DNA from: Pedobacter sp. Hv1
Lineage (GTDB): Bacteria; Bacteroidota; Bacteroidia; Sphingobacteriales; Sphingobacteriaceae
NCBI RefSeq assembly: GCF_001412215.1
Contig: NZ_LLWP01000009.1
Span: forward strand, 248,001 to 312,000
Length of the DNA stretch: 64,000 nt
Direction of reading: 5' to 3'
Shown here: piece by piece, positions 13,760 to 29,951 of the stretch
How the letters are laid out: the number at the start of each line of letters is the position of its first letter
Position numbering within the stretch: position 1 is the stretch's first letter
Notes under the pieces: generated by a model
Databases searched by the model: none
Seen by the model: the letters and a program-made list of their open reading frames with translations, nothing else
Told to the model about the DNA's origin: nothing
Made by a program: the position numbers and the translations under genes

Positions 13760-15157
13760 ATGAGTTTCAGAATAGAACACGATACCATGGGCGAGGTACA
13801 AGTGCCTGCAGATAAATATTGGGGTGCACAAACCGAACGTTCACGTAATAATTTTAAAATTGGTCCGGAGGCTTCTATGCCAAAGGAAATTATACATGCT
13901 TTTGGATATTTGAAAAAAGCAGCGGCTTTGGCAAATACTGAACTGGGTGTTTTGTCTACAGAAAAGGCAACTTTAATTGCCAATGCTTGTGATGAGGTAA
14001 TTGCAGGTAAATTGGATGCAGAATTTCCATTGGTGATCTGGCAAACAGGTTCTGGTACGCAAAGTAATATGAATGCCAATGAGGTGATTGCCAATCGTGC
14101 CCATGTTTTAAATGGTGGAAGTTTGGCCGATGACCATAAAGTACTTCACCCTAATGATGATGTGAACAAATCACAATCTTCTAATGATACCTATCCAACT
14201 GCAATGCACATTGCTGCATATCAACAAGCAGTAGAAATTACCATCCCAGGATTGGAAAAATTAAGAAATACCTTAGCTCAAAAAGCAGCTTCTTGGAATG
14301 ATATCGTTAAAACTGGCCGTACTCACTTTATGGATGCCACGCCTTTAACTTTGGGTCAAGAATTTTCAGGATATGTACAACAGATAGATAATGGTTTAAG
14401 AGCCATTAAAAATGCTTTGCAAATGATCAGCGAGTTGGCCTTAGGTGGAACCGCAGTTGGTACAGGTTTAAATACGCCAAATGGATATGATGTTTTGGTG
14501 GCTAAAAAGATTGCTGAACTAACAGGTTTAGCTTTTGTAACTGCACCAAATAAATTTGAAGCACTAGCTGCTCACGATGCCATGGTTGAATTATCTGGCG
14601 CTTACAAACGTGTAGCAGTTTCTTTAATGAAAATTGCAAACGATATTAGAATGTTGAGTTCAGGACCACGTTGTGGAATTGGAGAAATCATCATTCCTGA
14701 TAACGAGCCAGGCTCTTCAATTATGCCGGGTAAAGTTAATCCAACACAACCAGAGGCTTTGACTATGGTATGTGCCCAAGTTATGGGTAACGATGTAACC
14801 GTTGGTATTGGAGGTAGCAATGGCCATTTTGAGCTGAATGTATTTAAACCAGTTATTGCAGCTAATGTATTGCAGTCGGGACGTTTGATTGGCGATGCTT
14901 GTGTGTCATTTAACGATAAATGTGCTGAAGGTATTGAGCCTAATAGACCTGTAATTAAACAACACATGGAAAACTCTTTGATGTTGGTTACAGCGTTAAA
15001 CCCACACATTGGTTACGAGAATGCAGCTAAAATTGCAAAAAAAGCCCATAAAGAAAATAAAACTTTACGCGAAGCTGCAGTTGAATTGGGTTTGCTAACC
15101 AGTGAACAATTTGATGAGTGGGTTCGTCCGGAAGAAATGGTAGGAAGTTTAAAATAA
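13760..15157 (+). CDS. fumC: Fumarate hydratase, class II
   Basis: A 465-residue member of the fumarase/aspartase superfamily, the normal class II length. It begins [26 protein letters not shown], has the [14 protein letters not shown] and [13 protein letters not shown] substrate-binding regions, and the signature loop [15 protein letters not shown] with the catalytic serine (about residue 318). It interconverts fumarate and malate in the TCA cycle without an iron-sulfur cluster. The ATG at 13760 is the first in frame. The lipoprotein gene downstream follows after 59 bases and is probably separate. Confidence 0.97.
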
Positions 15158-24082: not shown

Positions 24083-24772
24083 ATGAACAAAATCTATCTT
24101 GGACTTGTTTGCTTATTTTTAACTGCGGAAGCAATGGCACAAAATGCCAATACAGCCCCGCAAGAAGGAGTTCCATCTAGTACTGCCATTAACATTGCGG
24201 TATCTAGAATGGGAGATACAGATGGTGATGAATACTTTGCAGATGCAGAGAAAAACGAACGAAAAGGAGATTTAAATGAAGCATTGACCTTATTTGGCAA
24301 AGCTGCTTTTGAATACAATAGTGATAAAAAATTTAGCAGATATGCAGCCTCATTATTGAGAATGAGCAATGTGCATTTATTGCTTTTACACTATACTGAA
24401 GCCGAACAGGTGATTCTTAATGCGGCATTAAAAACCTATACCAAAATTGGAAGCCGATCTGGCCAAATGGCTTCTTATAGTCAGTTAGGTAGGATCTACT
24501 TTGCAGCCAACAAACTAACGCAATCTTTATGGTTTTATACACAGCAAGGAATTTTGGCTCAACAGCTCAAAAATAATACAGCTTATATCGAATCTGTACT
24601 TGGAATAGCCGCTGTAAAAATCAAAAAGAAAGAATACGCCATGGCTACTAAAGATGTAAACAGAGCAGAATTGTTGGCAAAAAATGCAAACATTACGCAG
24701 TTTGCACAACAGATTAAATCAAGCAGGGCCACCATTGCCGATCGGCAGTTGCCAAAGGGCAAAACACGTTAA
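24083..24772 (+). CDS. Secreted tetratricopeptide protein
   Basis: A 229-residue protein with a signal peptide (1-19, ending AEAMAQ) and three to four TPR-like helical pairs (about 50-210): DALTLFGKAAFEYN-type, YTEAEQVILNAALKTYTKIG, SQLGRIYFAANKLTQSLWFYTQQG. The TPR array resembles those in the sensor halves of the two histidine kinases downstream, so it may be a periplasmic partner or a sensor fragment. The gap to the first kinase is 50 bases. No enzymatic motif. Function unknown. Confidence 0.8.
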   Translation: MNKIYLGLVCLFLTAEAMAQNANTAPQEGVPSSTAINIAVSRMGDTDGDEYFADAEKNERKGDLNEALTLFGKAAFEYNSDKKFSRYAASLLRMSNVHLLLLHYTEAEQVILNAALKTYTKIGSRSGQMASYSQLGRIYFAANKLTQSLWFYTQQGILAQQLKNNTAYIESVLGIAAVKIKKKEYAMATKDVNRAELLAKNANITQFAQQIKSSRATIADRQLPKGKTR

Positions 24773-24822: not shown

Positions 24823-26643
24823 ATGGTGCCTCCAATCAAACCCAAACAACTTATTCATTTACTAATTGCGCCACTCTTCTTGTTGGGATTATTGAGTCTA
24901 TCTTTCAATTCTATTGCACAACAAAATCCATTATTAGACTCTGCCAAACATATTTTTAGGTCTAGGCCTGAAGAAGCCATTTTACTTTTAAAGCGTGTAA
25001 AAAGCGAAGCTGTAAGCGCAAAAGATAACCCCGCTTTGATCCAGGCCGAACTGATGAATGGTAATATTGCCTATTTTAAGGGAAAGCATGATGAAGCATT
25101 AAAAATGTATATCAATGCTTTAAAAATTGCCGAACAAGCTAAACTTCATTTACAAATTGCAGCAGTTTGCAACGAGATCGGTACCCTTTTAAAAAAGAAC
25201 AAAGATTTACCTAAAGCACTCGAATATTATACCAGGGCATTAAATGAAGCACTTTTAGCTCGCCACGATGGACAAGTTGCCAATGCCTACAATAATATTG
25301 GTTTGGTTTATGAAGAAGAAGGTAATTATGCCAAAGCGCTCAAACAATATCAAAAATCTTTGGCCACCTACCAAAAAGCAAAGGATAAACTAGGCGAATC
25401 GTATAGCTTGGAATATATCGGTTATGTTTATGGATTAATGAAAAACTACGATTTGGCGGTAGAGAACCTGCAACAAAGTTTATCATTACGTATTGAAGTG
25501 AAAGACAATTATGGGATTGCCATTTGTTTAATTGAGCTTGCCGAAGTTTTTAGAGATAAAAAAGATTATCAGCTGGCAGCAAGTTATGCAAAAAGAACGG
25601 TGAGCTTTAGTAATGAAATCAATTATCCAGATATGCTTCAGAAAGGATATGCATTATTGGCTGAAATTTATGAAAGAGAACAAAATTTTGCTGCGGCTTA
25701 TCGTGCCCATCAACAATACACAGCAGTAAAGGATTCCATATTCAACATCGAAAAGAGTAAACAAATTACCGAGCAGCAAACCAAATATGAAAGCACAAAA
25801 AAGCAACAACAGATTGATCTTTTAAACAAAGAAAATACCATTCAAAAATTAAAACTGACCCAGCGTGATGGCATTATCGGAATCATTTCTTTTGCCTTTC
25901 TAATTTTCTCTTTCATCACTTACCTTTTATATAACCGTTATCGATTAAAGCAACAAACCAAATTACAGGCAGAGGTAATGCTGCAACAAGACTTGGCTAC
26001 CAAAGCAGTTTTAACTGCTGAAGAAAACGAGCGCATGCGCATTGCTGGAGAACTACATGATGGTTTAGGACAACTATTTTCGGCTGTAAAATTAAACCTA
26101 TCCGCCATCAGCGAAAATTTGACATTTAAAGATGAGCATAATGAAAGGATGTTTGATAAGACCCTACATCTGGTTGATGAAAGCTGTAAAGAAGTAAGGG
26201 CAATTTCACATCAAATGACACCGAATGTTTTATTAAAGGCGGGGTTAACAAGTGCCGTAAGAGATTTTATTGATAAGATTGATGCTCGAAAACTAAAGGT
26301 GAATCTGGCCACATTTGGCTTGCAAGATCGTTTAGACCACAATATAGAAATTGTGTTATATCGAGTAATACAAGAGACAGTAAACAATGTAATTAAACAT
26401 GCACAAGCCAGTTCGTTGGATATTCAATTGAGCAAAGATGTGGAAGGGATAAATGTAATGATTGAAGACAATGGGACAGGTTTCAATATTGCGCAGCTTG
26501 GAAAGTTTGATGGCATTGGGCTAAAAAATATTCAAACCAGGGTAGCTTATTTAAAAGGAACAGTAGATTTTTCTTCTCGCCTTGGCGAAGGTACTTTGAT
26601 CGCTATTTTTATCCCTTTTTTAAACAAAAAAAATACCCAATAG
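24823..26643 (+). CDS. TPR sensor histidine kinase 1 (NarL-type partner)
   Basis: A 606-residue membrane kinase. A signal peptide (about 1-32) is followed by a periplasmic array of about six TPR repeats (40-300), a coiled coil, one transmembrane helix (about 348-368), and a HisKA_3 dimerisation domain with GELHDGLGQLFSAVKLNLS (phosphorylated H412). The HATPase domain has the N box VIQETVNNVIKHA, G1 IEDNGTGF and G2 GIGLKNIQTRV. This layout is common in Bacteroidota; the ligand of the TPR domain is unknown. It should phosphorylate the NarL-type regulator encoded at 28972. A half-site CTGGGTA lies at 24784-24790 before the start. Confidence 0.93.
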   Translation: MVPPIKPKQLIHLLIAPLFLLGLLSLSFNSIAQQNPLLDSAKHIFRSRPEEAILLLKRVKSEAVSAKDNPALIQAELMNGNIAYFKGKHDEALKMYINALKIAEQAKLHLQIAAVCNEIGTLLKKNKDLPKALEYYTRALNEALLARHDGQVANAYNNIGLVYEEEGNYAKALKQYQKSLATYQKAKDKLGESYSLEYIGYVYGLMKNYDLAVENLQQSLSLRIEVKDNYGIAICLIELAEVFRDKKDYQLAASYAKRTVSFSNEINYPDMLQKGYALLAEIYEREQNFAAAYRAHQQYTAVKDSIFNIEKSKQITEQQTKYESTKKQQQIDLLNKENTIQKLKLTQRDGIIGIISFAFLIFSFITYLLYNRYRLKQQTKLQAEVMLQQDLATKAVLTAEENERMRIAGELHDGLGQLFSAVKLNLSAISENLTFKDEHNERMFDKTLHLVDESCKEVRAISHQMTPNVLLKAGLTSAVRDFIDKIDARKLKVNLATFGLQDRLDHNIEIVLYRVIQETVNNVIKHAQASSLDIQLSKDVEGINVMIEDNGTGFNIAQLGKFDGIGLKNIQTRVAYLKGTVDFSSRLGEGTLIAIFIPFLNKKNTQ

Positions 26644-26649
26644 AGGGTA
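26634..26649. promoter_or_regulatory. 7-2-7 inverted repeat, candidate response-regulator operator
   Basis: TACCCAATAGAGGGTA has the 7-2-7 layout and TACC/GGTA ends of NarL-type sites. Its centre (26641.5) is 38.5 bases before the end of the -7-like TAAATTTG at 26673-26680, and no TTG element is present, as in activator-dependent promoters. It overlaps the stop of kinase 1 and precedes kinase 2. Confidence 0.5.
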
Positions 26650-26672
26650 TATAATTAATGCGTATTTCCCTA

Positions 26673-26680
26673 TAAATTTG
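26673..26680 (+). promoter_or_regulatory. Putative -7 element of kinase 2
   Basis: TAAATTTG matches TAnnTTTG, 18 bases before the ATG at 26698. No upstream TTG at 17-23 bases is visible. Confidence 0.45.
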
Positions 26681-26697
26681 ATGTTTAAACCATCTCT

Positions 26698-28962
26698 ATG
26701 AAACGCTCATTCTGCCTTTTACTGTTATGTTTAGGTCTCTGCTATGTCTCAAATGCCCAAAATAAGGCAGTTATTGATAGTTTAAATAAGATCATTTCTT
26801 CAAAAACAGCAAAGGATACAACCTATATTAAGGCATTAAATGACCTGGCATGGCTTTATTCGAAAACAGATTCGGCAAAAGCAATGGGTTATGCGCTTGG
26901 CGCCAAAAATGCGGCAATGAAAAAGCAATATGTAACGGGTCTTGCAGAAGCCTATAAATCGATAGGGCATGTCAATTCTTATAAAAATCATACTGCTCTA
27001 GCCATTCAGAACTTTAATATTTCTAATGATTACTACACCAAATTAAATAACAAAAGAGAAATTGGCGGTAATTACAATAACATGGGTACCGCCTATAAAC
27101 TAGTAGGTAATTTAAACGATGCCTTGGTTTATTTTCTAAAAGCCGAAAAAATACATCGTGGTATCAATGACCTAGAGGCCCTAGGTGCAGACCTTAATAA
27201 TATTGGAACCGTTTATAATGATCTGGGTGATCTTAATAAAGCCATTGATTATTACCTGCAAGCTACAAGGATAACCGAAAAGGGCAAAATACCAAGAAAT
27301 AATGCCCAAACTTTTATCAATATTGGTAATATCCTGCGCTTGCAGAAAAACTATAAAGAGGGTGTTTTGTATTACGATAAGGCCATTAAGATTTTGATAG
27401 ATTTTAACGACCAACTGAATTTGGGCATTGCCTATATCAATTATGCAAATATTTATATCGATCAATCAGCTTATGATAAGGCCATCCACCTGATTGATCA
27501 AAGTGTAATTGCATTTACCAAAGCTAACTTTAAACGAGGCTTACAGGTCTGTTACAATAACCTGGGGGCATTGTATATTAGACAAGAAAAATATAAGGAA
27601 GCCGTTCCAATTTTAGAAAAATCCATTAAAATAGCTGAAGAATCTAAAAACTTTGCAGGACTAGCACTGGTGCAGCAGAATATTGCTTTTTCTTATACCA
27701 AGATGGGTGCATTTAAACAGGCAGAAGAGTGGTTTGACAAGGCAGAGGCAGCAGCATTGAAATACAATAAGGCAGATGTGGGTACATTTGCCGAGATCTA
27801 TAACCATCGGTCTTCTCTAGATTCTGCAATAGGCGATTTTAAACGGGCTTTTTTTAGCAGAGACCGATACCGGCTGATTAAAGATAGTTTGTTAAATGAA
27901 AAGTTGAGCAAACAGATCAATGAACTCAATACCAAGTACCAAACTGAAAAGAAACAAAACCAAATTTCTCTTTTAAGTACACAGAACCAGATTCAAGGGC
28001 TACAATTGAATAAAAGCAAGCTTGAAATTTTGAATAAGAACCTCATTTTAGATAAAAATAACCTACAGATCAATACGCAAAGTCTCTTGCTAGAAAGAAA
28101 TCGTTCTGAGCTCAATCAGAAAAAATCGGAAACGATAGTAAAAGAACAAAAAATTAAACTCCTCAATACCGAAAACGAGATCCAAAAACTAGAACTGCTT
28201 AAAAGAAATATCACCATCATCATTATTGCAGCCATACTGTTTTTCAGTATCCTTATCGGATTTCTATTTTACAATAAGTACAAGTTAAAACAAGAGGCTA
28301 GGTTACAAGGTGAGGTAATTAAACAGCAAGATTTGTCTACCCGTGCAGTTTTAAATGCGGAGGAGAATGAGCGTAAACGAATTTCAGGCGAATTGCATGA
28401 TGGTTTAGGTCAGCTATTTTCAGCGGTTAAGATGAACCTTTCGGCCCTAACCGAAAATGTTGATTTTAAAGACAAACACGGAGAAGAAATGTTTCATAAA
28501 ACCATGAGTTTGGTTGATGAGAGTTGTAAGGAAGTTCGCTTAATTTCCCATCAAATGGCGCCAAATGTTTTATTAAAATCTGGTCTTACTGCTGCGGTGA
28601 GAGATTTTATCAGTAAAATAGATGCCAGAAAATTGAAGATCAATTTAGAGACATTTGGTTTGCAGAACAGGTTAGATCAAAATATAGAAACCGTTTTATA
28701 TCGTGTAATCCAAGAAACAGTAAACAATGTCATCAAACATTCTGGAGCCAATGTCTTAGATATCCAACTCACAAAAGATGAAGAAGGGATCAATGTAATG
28801 ATAGAAGACAATGGTAAAGGCTTTGACACTTCATCTTTAGAGAAATTTGAAGGTATTGGCCTAAAGAATATTAAAAGTAGGGTTGGGTACCTCAAAGGAT
28901 CGGTAGATTTTTCTTCAAACCTTGGTTCAGGTACACTTGTGGCAATCCATATTCCTTTGTAG
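26698..28962 (+). CDS. TPR sensor histidine kinase 2 (NarL-type partner)
   Basis: A 754-residue paralog of the preceding kinase. Signal peptide (1-20, ending VSNAQ), seven or so TPR repeats (about 40-400), a longer asparagine- and glutamine-rich coiled coil (about 400-500), one transmembrane helix (about 505-525), HisKA_3 with GELHDGLGQLFSAVKMNLS (H567) and HATPase with VIQETVNNVIKHSG, IEDNGKGF and GIGLKNIKSRV. The cytoplasmic half is nearly the same as in kinase 1 while the sensor half differs, so the two probably feed one regulator with different inputs. The regulator gene follows after nine bases. Confidence 0.93.
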   Translation: MKRSFCLLLLCLGLCYVSNAQNKAVIDSLNKIISSKTAKDTTYIKALNDLAWLYSKTDSAKAMGYALGAKNAAMKKQYVTGLAEAYKSIGHVNSYKNHTALAIQNFNISNDYYTKLNNKREIGGNYNNMGTAYKLVGNLNDALVYFLKAEKIHRGINDLEALGADLNNIGTVYNDLGDLNKAIDYYLQATRITEKGKIPRNNAQTFINIGNILRLQKNYKEGVLYYDKAIKILIDFNDQLNLGIAYINYANIYIDQSAYDKAIHLIDQSVIAFTKANFKRGLQVCYNNLGALYIRQEKYKEAVPILEKSIKIAEESKNFAGLALVQQNIAFSYTKMGAFKQAEEWFDKAEAAALKYNKADVGTFAEIYNHRSSLDSAIGDFKRAFFSRDRYRLIKDSLLNEKLSKQINELNTKYQTEKKQNQISLLSTQNQIQGLQLNKSKLEILNKNLILDKNNLQINTQSLLLERNRSELNQKKSETIVKEQKIKLLNTENEIQKLELLKRNITIIIIAAILFFSILIGFLFYNKYKLKQEARLQGEVIKQQDLSTRAVLNAEENERKRISGELHDGLGQLFSAVKMNLSALTENVDFKDKHGEEMFHKTMSLVDESCKEVRLISHQMAPNVLLKSGLTAAVRDFISKIDARKLKINLETFGLQNRLDQNIETVLYRVIQETVNNVIKHSGANVLDIQLTKDEEGINVMIEDNGKGFDTSSLEKFEGIGLKNIKSRVGYLKGSVDFSSNLGSGTLVAIHIPL

Positions 28963-28971
28963 TTTAGTGAG

Positions 28972-29607
28972 ATGGAAAATGTGCCTAAAATAAATCTCTT
29001 TATTGTTGACGACCATCAATTGGTTGTAGACGGTTTAAGTTCTTTGCTCAATAACGAAGAACGATACGCATTGGTGGGGTTTTGTCATCAACCCAAAGAA
29101 GTAATGGCCATGTTAGAAGAATTGGAAGTTGATATCTTACTAACAGACATCAATATGCCAGAAATGTCTGGGGTAGAATTGACCAGAAATGTCAAGAAAA
29201 GATTCCCGAACATTAAAGTTTTGGCCCTTTCTATGTTTGGCGAACGTCAAGTGATCAAAGAAATGATAGATGCTGGTGTGTCTGGCTATATCTTAAAAAA
29301 TACAGGAAAGCAAGAGTTGATCGCCGCTTTGGATAAGCTGGCCAGTGGGCAAACTTTTTTTGGCGATGAAGTAACCCAAGAACTCATGAAGGCTTTTAAA
29401 CGCAATGAGGAAGAGTCGCATTTAACCAATCGTGAAATAGAGATTATCCGTTTGATTGAGCGTGAATTGAGCAATAAAAAAATTGCAGACCTGTTGTTCA
29501 TCAGCGAGCGTACTGTAGAAACCCACCGTAAAAATATATTCAGAAAAACGGGTACACAAAGTATCGTTGGATTGCTAAAATATGCTTACGACCATAAGAT
29601 TATTTAA
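28972..29607 (+). CDS. NarL/FixJ-family response regulator
   Basis: A 211-residue regulator. The receiver domain (about 5-120) has acidic residues D13/D14, phosphoacceptor D59 in LTDINMPEMSG and lysine in GYILKNTGK. The C-terminal LuxR-type helix-turn-helix (about 145-205) contains LTNREIEIIRLIERELSNKKIADLLFISERTVETHRKNIFRKTG. It should be activated by the two kinases upstream and bind as a dimer. Two 7-2-7 sites lie right after its stop codon, before the stand-alone HTH gene. Confidence 0.94.
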   Translation: MENVPKINLFIVDDHQLVVDGLSSLLNNEERYALVGFCHQPKEVMAMLEELEVDILLTDINMPEMSGVELTRNVKKRFPNIKVLALSMFGERQVIKEMIDAGVSGYILKNTGKQELIAALDKLASGQTFFGDEVTQELMKAFKRNEEESHLTNREIEIIRLIERELSNKKIADLLFISERTVETHRKNIFRKTGTQSIVGLLKYAYDHKII

Positions 29608-29612
29608 TGGTG

Positions 29613-29628
29613 TACCTACCAATGGGTA
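29613..29628. promoter_or_regulatory. 7-2-7 inverted repeat, distal site
   Basis: TACCTACCAATGGGTA reads as TACCTAC-CA-ATGGGTA, a 7-2-7 pattern. Its centre lies 24 bases upstream of the second site at 29637-29652, in front of the stand-alone LuxR-type gene. Confidence 0.45.
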
Positions 29629-29636
29629 GATGAATA

Positions 29637-29652
29637 TACCCTGAACTTGGTA
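29637..29652. promoter_or_regulatory. 7-2-7 inverted repeat, proximal site
   Basis: TACCCTGAACTTGGTA reads as TACCCTG-AA-CTTGGTA. Its centre (29644.5) is 38.5 bases before the end of a -7-like AATTTTTG at 29676-29683, the same distance as at kinase 2. A TTG at 29653-29655 lies 20 bases before that element. Confidence 0.5.
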
Positions 29653-29729
29653 TTGTGCCTCGTCATGTTTTTTTCAATTTTTGTTTCCATCAACAATCAT
29701 CTACAATAAGATGGACCAACACTTTGTAC

Positions 29730-29951
29730 ATGAAGAATAATACAATAAGAGTTATTGATGTTTTAAGTAGACGAGAGGTGGAGATTATTAAGCTCATTAC
29801 CCAAGAGTATAGTAATGAGGAAATAGCTGCTCATTTGGCCATTAGTAGGCGTACCGTAGAAACGCATCGAAAAAATATTTTTAAGAAAACAAAAGTAAAA
29901 AGCATTGTTGGATTAGTGTTGTTGGCCATTAAAAGCAAGTTAGTTTCTTAA
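29730..29951 (+). CDS. Stand-alone LuxR-type helix-turn-helix protein
   Basis: About 73 residues from the ATG at 29730, consisting of little more than a LuxR/NarL DNA-binding domain: VLSRREVEIIKLITQEYSNEEIAAHLAISRRTVETHRKNIFKKTKVKSIVGLV. It matches the C-terminal domain of the upstream response regulator closely but has no receiver. It may compete with or replace the regulator at its sites. A GTG at 29655 would add 25 residues of no recognisable fold, overlapping the putative promoter, so I reject it. Confidence 0.8.
   Translation: MKNNTIRVIDVLSRREVEIIKLITQEYSNEEIAAHLAISRRTVETHRKNIFKKTKVKSIVGLVLLAIKSKLVS

Follow-up and report, generated by a model that had tools for sequence, protein, structure and literature searches.

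The closest described systems are those of NarL, which binds 16-base sites of 7-2-7 layout as a dimer; an engineered narG site used with this protein, TACCCCTAAAGGGGTA, has the form TACC-N8-GGTA (PMC4549865, in excerpt). At ogt, two NarL sites are centred at -44.5 and -77.5, and yeaR carries one site just upstream of the -35 element (PMC7419079, in excerpt). The fragment NarL-C, residues 147-216 and about 70 residues in length, binds a 7-2-7 site as a dimer, and in the excerpted text output-domain constructs repress frdA constitutively, reportedly activate napF fully and yeaR partly, and do not activate narG (PMC4549865). For the promoter of Bacteroidota, a -7 element TAnnTTTG and a -33 element TTTG are given, the -33 motif not being found in Flavobacterium johnsoniae (PMC7366714, in excerpt). 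Do operators of the NarL type also occur with promoters of this kind? Among the titles and abstract beginnings of the open-access matches listed, no such operators were described in this phylum.

The window (the whole 64-kb stretch of DNA that was analysed) belongs to a genome of 4.9 Mb in 23 contigs. It holds a cluster in the order TPR protein, kinase 1, site, kinase 2, regulator, site pair and 73-aa HTH protein, with the following features.

24083..24772, + strand: TPR protein, first cluster gene (from the open reading frame list; weak TPR_MalT match; signal-peptide-like start, judged by eye)
24823..26643, + strand: TPR histidine kinase 1 (Pfam domains TPR, HisKA_3 and HATPase_c)
26634..26649, + strand: single candidate operator before kinase 2, TACCCAATAGAGGGTA, overlapping the last codons of kinase 1 (end 26643)
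26673..26680, + strand: putative -7 element TAAATTTG, 23 bases after the kinase 2 operator, fitting TAnnTTTG
26698..28962, + strand: TPR histidine kinase 2 (Pfam domains TPR, HisKA_3 and HATPase_c)
28972..29607, + strand: NarL-family response regulator (receiver and GerE/LuxR HTH), the proposed binder
29613..29628, + strand: distal candidate operator of the tandem pair, TACCTACCAATGGGTA, 5 bases past the regulator stop
29637..29652, + strand: proximal candidate operator of the tandem pair, TACCCTGAACTTGGTA, 24 bases downstream of the distal one and in register
29653..29655, + strand: TTG abutting the proximal operator (GGTATTG), invariant in the nine-locus alignment, putatively -33-like
29676..29683, + strand: putative -7 element AATTTTTG, 23 bases after the proximal operator, one base off TAnnTTTG
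29730..29951, + strand: stand-alone GerE/LuxR HTH protein of 73 aa (Pfam)

Both kinases carry HisKA_3 together with HATPase_c and are thus HisKA_3 histidine kinases, and the regulator, with PF00072 (9.7e-27) and PF00196 (4.7e-17), belongs to the NarL family. Compared with solved structures, it matches chains of VraR, DevR and NarL, those of VraR and DevR being the highest-scoring full-length matches; VraR and DevR come from other phyla. The first-gene TPR protein is kept beside the cluster in relatives and is found beside HTH genes elsewhere too. For the HTH gene, comparison with relatives favours the ATG at 29730 over the GTG of the open reading frame list, at 29655. Regulator and HTH protein have the helix RTVETHRKNIF(R/K)KT in common; its TVETHRKNIF part differs from the helix of NarL. 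At least nine other regulators with the same kind of DNA-binding domain are encoded in the same genome.

It is likely that the regulator, phosphorylated by the kinases, binds TACC-N8-GGTA as a dimer and activates promoters of the housekeeping sigma factor before kinase 2 and before a set of output genes. The sites, their spacing, their conservation and their co-occurrence with the regulator are observed in the sequences; binding, activation, phosphorylation and the sign of any feedback by the HTH protein are predictions.

The earlier note had described three 16-base inverted repeats of the NarL-type 7-2-7 layout, and all three are present in the sequence where it had placed them. The equal distance that it had pointed out is there as well: at both promoters, 38.5 bases separate the centre of the proximal site from the last base of the -7 element, i.e. 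23 bases lie between site and -7 octamer. Of the 7-2-7 layout, the sites show the 16-base frame and the outer TACC and GGTA, but only five of the seven arm positions pair in each site, and the common core is TACC-N8-GGTA. The second -7 element had been taken for TAnnTTTG, which it is not, as 29676-29683 reads AATTTTTG, with A as its first base. No TTG stands behind the operator at the kinase 2 promoter, and no strict operator precedes kinase 1 of the window. A restriction of the repeats to the regions before kinase 2 and the HTH gene is correct for the cluster but not for the window, where TACC-N8-GGTA is also found at 13783 and 36988.

Could these be chance inverted repeats in AT-rich DNA? 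The bare 16-mer is indeed at chance density, with 130 occurrences in the 4.9 Mb genome compared with 154 for the reversed control. Since there is no enrichment, the meaning of the sites lies in their geometry and conservation. At the genome density, 0.08 sites would be expected in the 3050 bases concerned, and the probability of three or more is 8e-5. A strict fixed-distance scan of the same genome yields three promoters only. Random scattering over the genome, which had been named as an outcome that would speak against the earlier interpretation, is half true: it applies to the bare 16-mer, but not to the 16-mer at a fixed distance from the -7 element. A scan of the window with one mismatch allowed (37 sites with 13.8 expected, a number reached in 0 of 100 shuffles) was set aside, as it counts near-palindromes on both strands. 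Chance is an extremely improbable explanation, contradicted by conservation in nine of nine loci, a spacing peak, a tandem register and co-occurrence with the regulator, all of which are taken up below.

Kinase 2 was searched against 119 genomes of the genus, and 20 regions were hand-chosen from the matches; in nine loci, counting the window, the HTH gene comes after the regulator gene. Every one of them has the pair, 4-5 bases past the stop codon of the regulator and with its sites 24 bases apart. TACC, TGGGTAG, AATATACCC, GGTATTG, TTTT, AA and TTTG are invariant in the alignment of these loci and the intervening bases vary; the A at the first base of the -7 element of the pair promoter is present in the eight aligned relatives also. 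In the loci compared (window included), ten kinase genes have a strict site 35-48 bases upstream, and none of the other kinase genes listed has one. Nine of these ten genes are from relatives: six have a gap of 22 to TAnnTTTG, one has a gap of 23 to GATATTTG, and two, the first kinases of L046 and L047, have no scored -7 element. Exact equality of the distances at the two promoters is thus not conserved in relatives, where the gaps at kinase genes are 22-23 and the pair keeps 23. Eight cluster loci have the regulator without the HTH gene. Behind the regulator of one (L063) is a strict site, before another small gene, and behind that of another (L049) a one-mismatch site at gap 23 from AAAATTTG; in the remaining six, neither a strict nor a one-mismatch site was found behind the regulator gene. 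A relative of kinase 2 (L048, G005:C4), 66% identical, is situated apart from the regulator and has no strict operator before the gene.

What does the pair precede? Between the pair and the listed HTH start, seven of the nine loci have about 490-650 bases, which code for a lipoprotein of 155-172 aa whose start codon is ~50 bases behind the proximal site. The copy from L047, the single one checked, matches DUF6252 (E 4e-9), on which no paper was found in the open-access literature. Only in the window and in G039 is the lipoprotein gene absent from this place, with the HTH gene directly following the pair, and tblastn gave no meaningful match to the lipoprotein elsewhere in the 64-kb window. The presence of the gene in seven of nine loci suggests that it was lost in the window and in G039.

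The distance between operator and -7 element was analysed in 26 hand-chosen genomes, 18 with a kinase match and 8 from those without one. TACC-N8-GGTA with NANNTTTG at gap 23 gives 65 matches in these genomes, compared with 16 for the reversed control. When the gap to TAnnTTTG is left free between 8 and 38, there are 130 places; gaps 22 and 23 account for 17 and 27 of them (44/130 together), and the other 29 of the 31 gaps have 3.0 matches each on average. Summed over all gaps, the 130 places compare with 144 in the reversed control, and the signal is confined to gaps 22 and 23. With gap 22-23 and a T required after GGTA, 145 genomes of the genus give 208 matches (27 in the control). A scan of the phylum with a stricter form of the pattern, in 296 genomes, gives 64 matches in 33 genomes (6 in the control): 25 of 73 genomes of the class to which the window belongs have a match (51 matches, 4 control), as do 8 of 223 genomes outside it (13 matches, 2 control). 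By these counts, a putative promoter class is well supported inside this taxonomic class, and support is thin beyond. Position relative to genes was followed with 45 distinct promoters in 50 loci, drawn from the 65 gap-23 matches. A frame of at least 60 aa starts 10-60 bases downstream of 30 of the 45; when the position was shifted in six ways, the number was between 1 and 17 of 45. Many of the downstream proteins are signal-peptide- or lipoprotein-like at the start, as judged by eye, and some matches are inside genes. In L217 (4369-4582, G065:C12), two promoters of the class are found in series, 167 bases apart, before what looks by eye like a sugar-transferase gene.

The loci examined provided 102 non-redundant promoters, which are not a random sample. 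The four bases before TACC are A in 74, 85, 68 and 81% of them, and GGTAT is followed by T in 68% and then by T or G in 82%. Do the inner bases of the 16-mer pair? Complementarity exceeds that in shuffles at positions 5/12 (43 with 29 expected) and 6/11 (56 with 37 expected), with no clear excess at 7/10 (33 with 26 expected; 0.07) or 8/9 (31 with 33 expected). This supports a dimer site with six-base arms, for which a 7-2-7 layout is indistinguishable from 6-4-6. With TACC fixed by the search, position 5 is C or T in 68% and position 6 is A or C in 72% of the 102 promoters; the NarL heptamer consensus is TACYYMT.

Ten of the 102 promoters have GGGTA at a distance of exactly 8 bases upstream of TACC, and it is found at none of 49 other offsets. 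The 24-base register and the linker NNNNAAWA were noticed first and counted afterwards, and the counts are not blind tests. GGGTA-N8-TACC-N8-GGTA was scanned for in 145 genomes, with regulator carriers defined by E <= 1e-62. Tandem sites are found at 29 distinct places in 15 of 17 carriers and at 25 places in 23 of 128 other genomes (Fisher p 1.5e-8; the genomes are related, so that this and the other p-values overstate independence). Among the 29 places are the nine pairs of the cluster loci, for which the pattern also matches on the opposite strand. The linker is present at 28 of the 29 carrier places and at 1 of the 25 others, the latter in G080 with no scored -7 element behind the site. 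Two carriers, G065 and G086, are without a tandem; the one in G070 is chance-like, and G039 has the cluster pair only.

The consensus of 22 distinct tandem promoters that have a -7-like NANNTTT at gap 23 is TMSGTRCTRTTGGGTA-KRTRAAWA-TACC-N8-GGTA. Behind the tandem promoters, recurring families can be recognized by eye: the lipoprotein or HTH gene, an exported protein of 133 aa in G000, G104, G022 and G007, a protein with FGIGLEGALP in six genomes, a NPAEVTDSKTLSLDELK-type protein in at least seven and, in G005, a larger protein. The 133-aa family is found in 4 of 145 genomes, all among the 17 carriers (p 1.3e-4), and each time behind a tandem promoter. FGIGLEGALP homologs at L224 and L228 have sites (L106, L098); for nine distant homologs (L232-L240), the gene start was located in two, with no site there, and was not located in seven. 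The third strict promoter in the genome of the window (G000:C9:170484-170543) is a tandem; the gene behind it, at G000:C9:170569, codes for an exported protein of 133 aa that matches no Pfam family.

Which protein reads the sites, the regulator or the HTH protein? By match thresholds, the regulator occurs without the HTH gene in eight genomes, and the HTH gene without the regulator in six. By bare presence, a tandem is found in 6 of the 8 and in 2 of the 6 (p 0.16); the linker-type tandem is found in 5 of the 8 and in 0 of the 6 (p 0.028). As the linker-type tandem is kept in regulator-only genomes and absent from HTH-only ones, the regulator is the likelier binder. The distribution of sites points to the cluster regulator as their probable, predicted binder.

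The alternative is that the stand-alone HTH protein is the main reader and exerts GerE-like control over itself and the kinase. Its recognition helix is nearly identical to that of the regulator, all 15 HTH carriers have at least two fixed-distance promoters, and the six without a regulator ortholog have 24, an average of 4.0. There are also six loci (L202-L207, from G106, G121, G055, G144, G114 and G017) where a TPR gene is directly followed by the HTH gene and the regulator is not adjoining; in G106 and G055, two of the six HTH-only genomes, the HTH gene is behind an operator with TAATTTTA at gap 22, recognized by eye because the automatic scan required TTTG. No operators were seen between the TPR and HTH genes of G121, G144, G114 and G017. 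Clusters without the HTH gene, for their part, are mostly without sites behind the regulator. The linker-type tandem, with its 5 of 8 and 0 of 6, speaks against the HTH protein as main reader, as do two other promoter-flanked TPR-kinase/regulator pairs (G119 L209 and G003 L220), around which no HTH gene was found in stretches of 12 kb. We consider this alternative unlikely.

These two pairs were picked for carrying several matches. Their regulators are 47 and 50% identical, a promoter of the class lies 110-116 bases before the kinase start, and the site of a second such promoter begins 4 bases behind the regulator gene; RTVETHRKNIFRKT is common to the cluster regulator and the regulators of both pairs. 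In L209 (4574-7418), a divergent promoter faces a MORN-repeat-like protein and the last promoter a PQQ-repeat-like protein, both identified by eye. The other pair, in L220 (5272-7981), is likewise flanked by promoters of the class.

Is the cluster then one node in a cross-talking network, where several NarL-family regulators with one recognition helix read the operators? The 122 genomes with neither gene have 130 fixed-distance promoters compared with 24 in the control, and other regulators must therefore read such sites. The phylum sample, with its 64 matches to 6 mainly in the one class, agrees with a network, as do the two additional kinase/regulator pairs, which have such promoters and the same helix, and a paralog in the same genome (L117) that also has RTVETHRKN. 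The linker-type tandem, however, is nearly confined to carriers of one regulator, and among ten paralog loci of the same genome (L117-L126, ~1.5 kb on each side) the strict 16-mer is found in two, in one of them inside the regulator match itself. A network of this sort is a genuine possibility, although we lean against it. Carriers of either gene have a mean of 3.4 fixed-distance promoters per genome compared with 1.07 (p 7e-10), and with the cluster sites removed the carrier mean is 2.6 (p 7e-7).

The earlier proposal that the regulator controls its own kinase and the HTH protein is supported in part: fixed-distance sites and a tandem that tracks the regulator favour it, but the HTH gene is usually behind the lipoprotein gene. 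Would the regulator activate or repress? Dimers on the -33 region could hold the promoters off; the proximal operator abuts a -33-like TTG, where bound protein could block the polymerase, and NarL itself represses frdA (PMC4549865, in excerpt). Repressor sites, however, would presumably not have to keep a set distance to the -7 element, and the fixed distance seen here, the kinase site without TTG and the departure of the pair promoter from TAnnTTTG suit promoters that depend on an activator. Repression through these sites is improbable.

Activation by the cluster regulator, the reading preferred here, may proceed as follows. The TPR kinases would phosphorylate the NarL-family response regulator of the cluster, and a dimer would occupy the proximal site, its centre some 38 bases upstream of where the -7 element ends, or roughly at -42 to -44 if the -7 element has its usual location. 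The bound regulator would activate transcription that uses the housekeeping sigma factor. A single dimer site would suffice before kinase 2 and would result in positive feedback on the sensor; by analogy, the regulator would act as an activator from a fixed position and feed back positively on kinase 2. Output promoters would have a second, asymmetric site 24 bases upstream and in register. Exported proteins, usually small ones, would make up most of their products: in the majority of relatives the lipoprotein and then the HTH protein, and here the HTH protein alone together with one further gene elsewhere in the genome. The HTH protein, a twin of the regulator with almost the same recognition helix but without the receiver, would probably bind the same sites regardless of phosphorylation and feed back; it may compete with the regulator or replace it.

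A broader proposal can be offered tentatively, with confidence somewhat short of even. In this taxonomic class of Bacteroidota, and thinly outside it, there may exist a response-regulator-dependent promoter class in which TACC-N8-GGTA, 22-23 bases from the -7 element, replaces the -33 contact. One branch would have added the asymmetric site 24 bases upstream, which would mark the regulon of a single TPR-kinase regulator, together with a receiver-less twin that is produced from the same promoter and competes or co-occupies as feedback. An operator at a fixed distance from the -7 element, with a tandem form marking the targets of one regulator, would let regulons be read from sequence. The fixed-distance and tandem sites also give a small set of promoters for direct testing.

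How does the locus compare with known systems? The E. coli NarL operators (yeaR, ogt and napF) likewise consist of inverted heptamers within 16 bases. In the present case, six arm positions pair more often than by chance in the class as a whole, and five of seven do so in the three sites before kinase 2 and the HTH gene; the promoter is of the Bacteroidota type, and the tandem register is 24 bases in contrast to 33 at ogt. NarL-C would have its natural counterpart in the 73-aa HTH protein, a predicted binder, which is encoded by a separate natural gene; such a receiver-less twin would be a natural version of the output domain on its own, previously studied in the form of constructs. VraR and DevR work with other sensors and promoters than those found here. 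With the Bacteroidota housekeeping promoter, the candidate promoters here and in relatives share the -7 element, except for the first base at the pair; they differ in that an operator, at a fixed distance, adjoins the -33 element or takes its place. Control of the NarL type is known; what appears to be new is its fixed geometry with this type of promoter, the 24-base tandem form and the twin protein.
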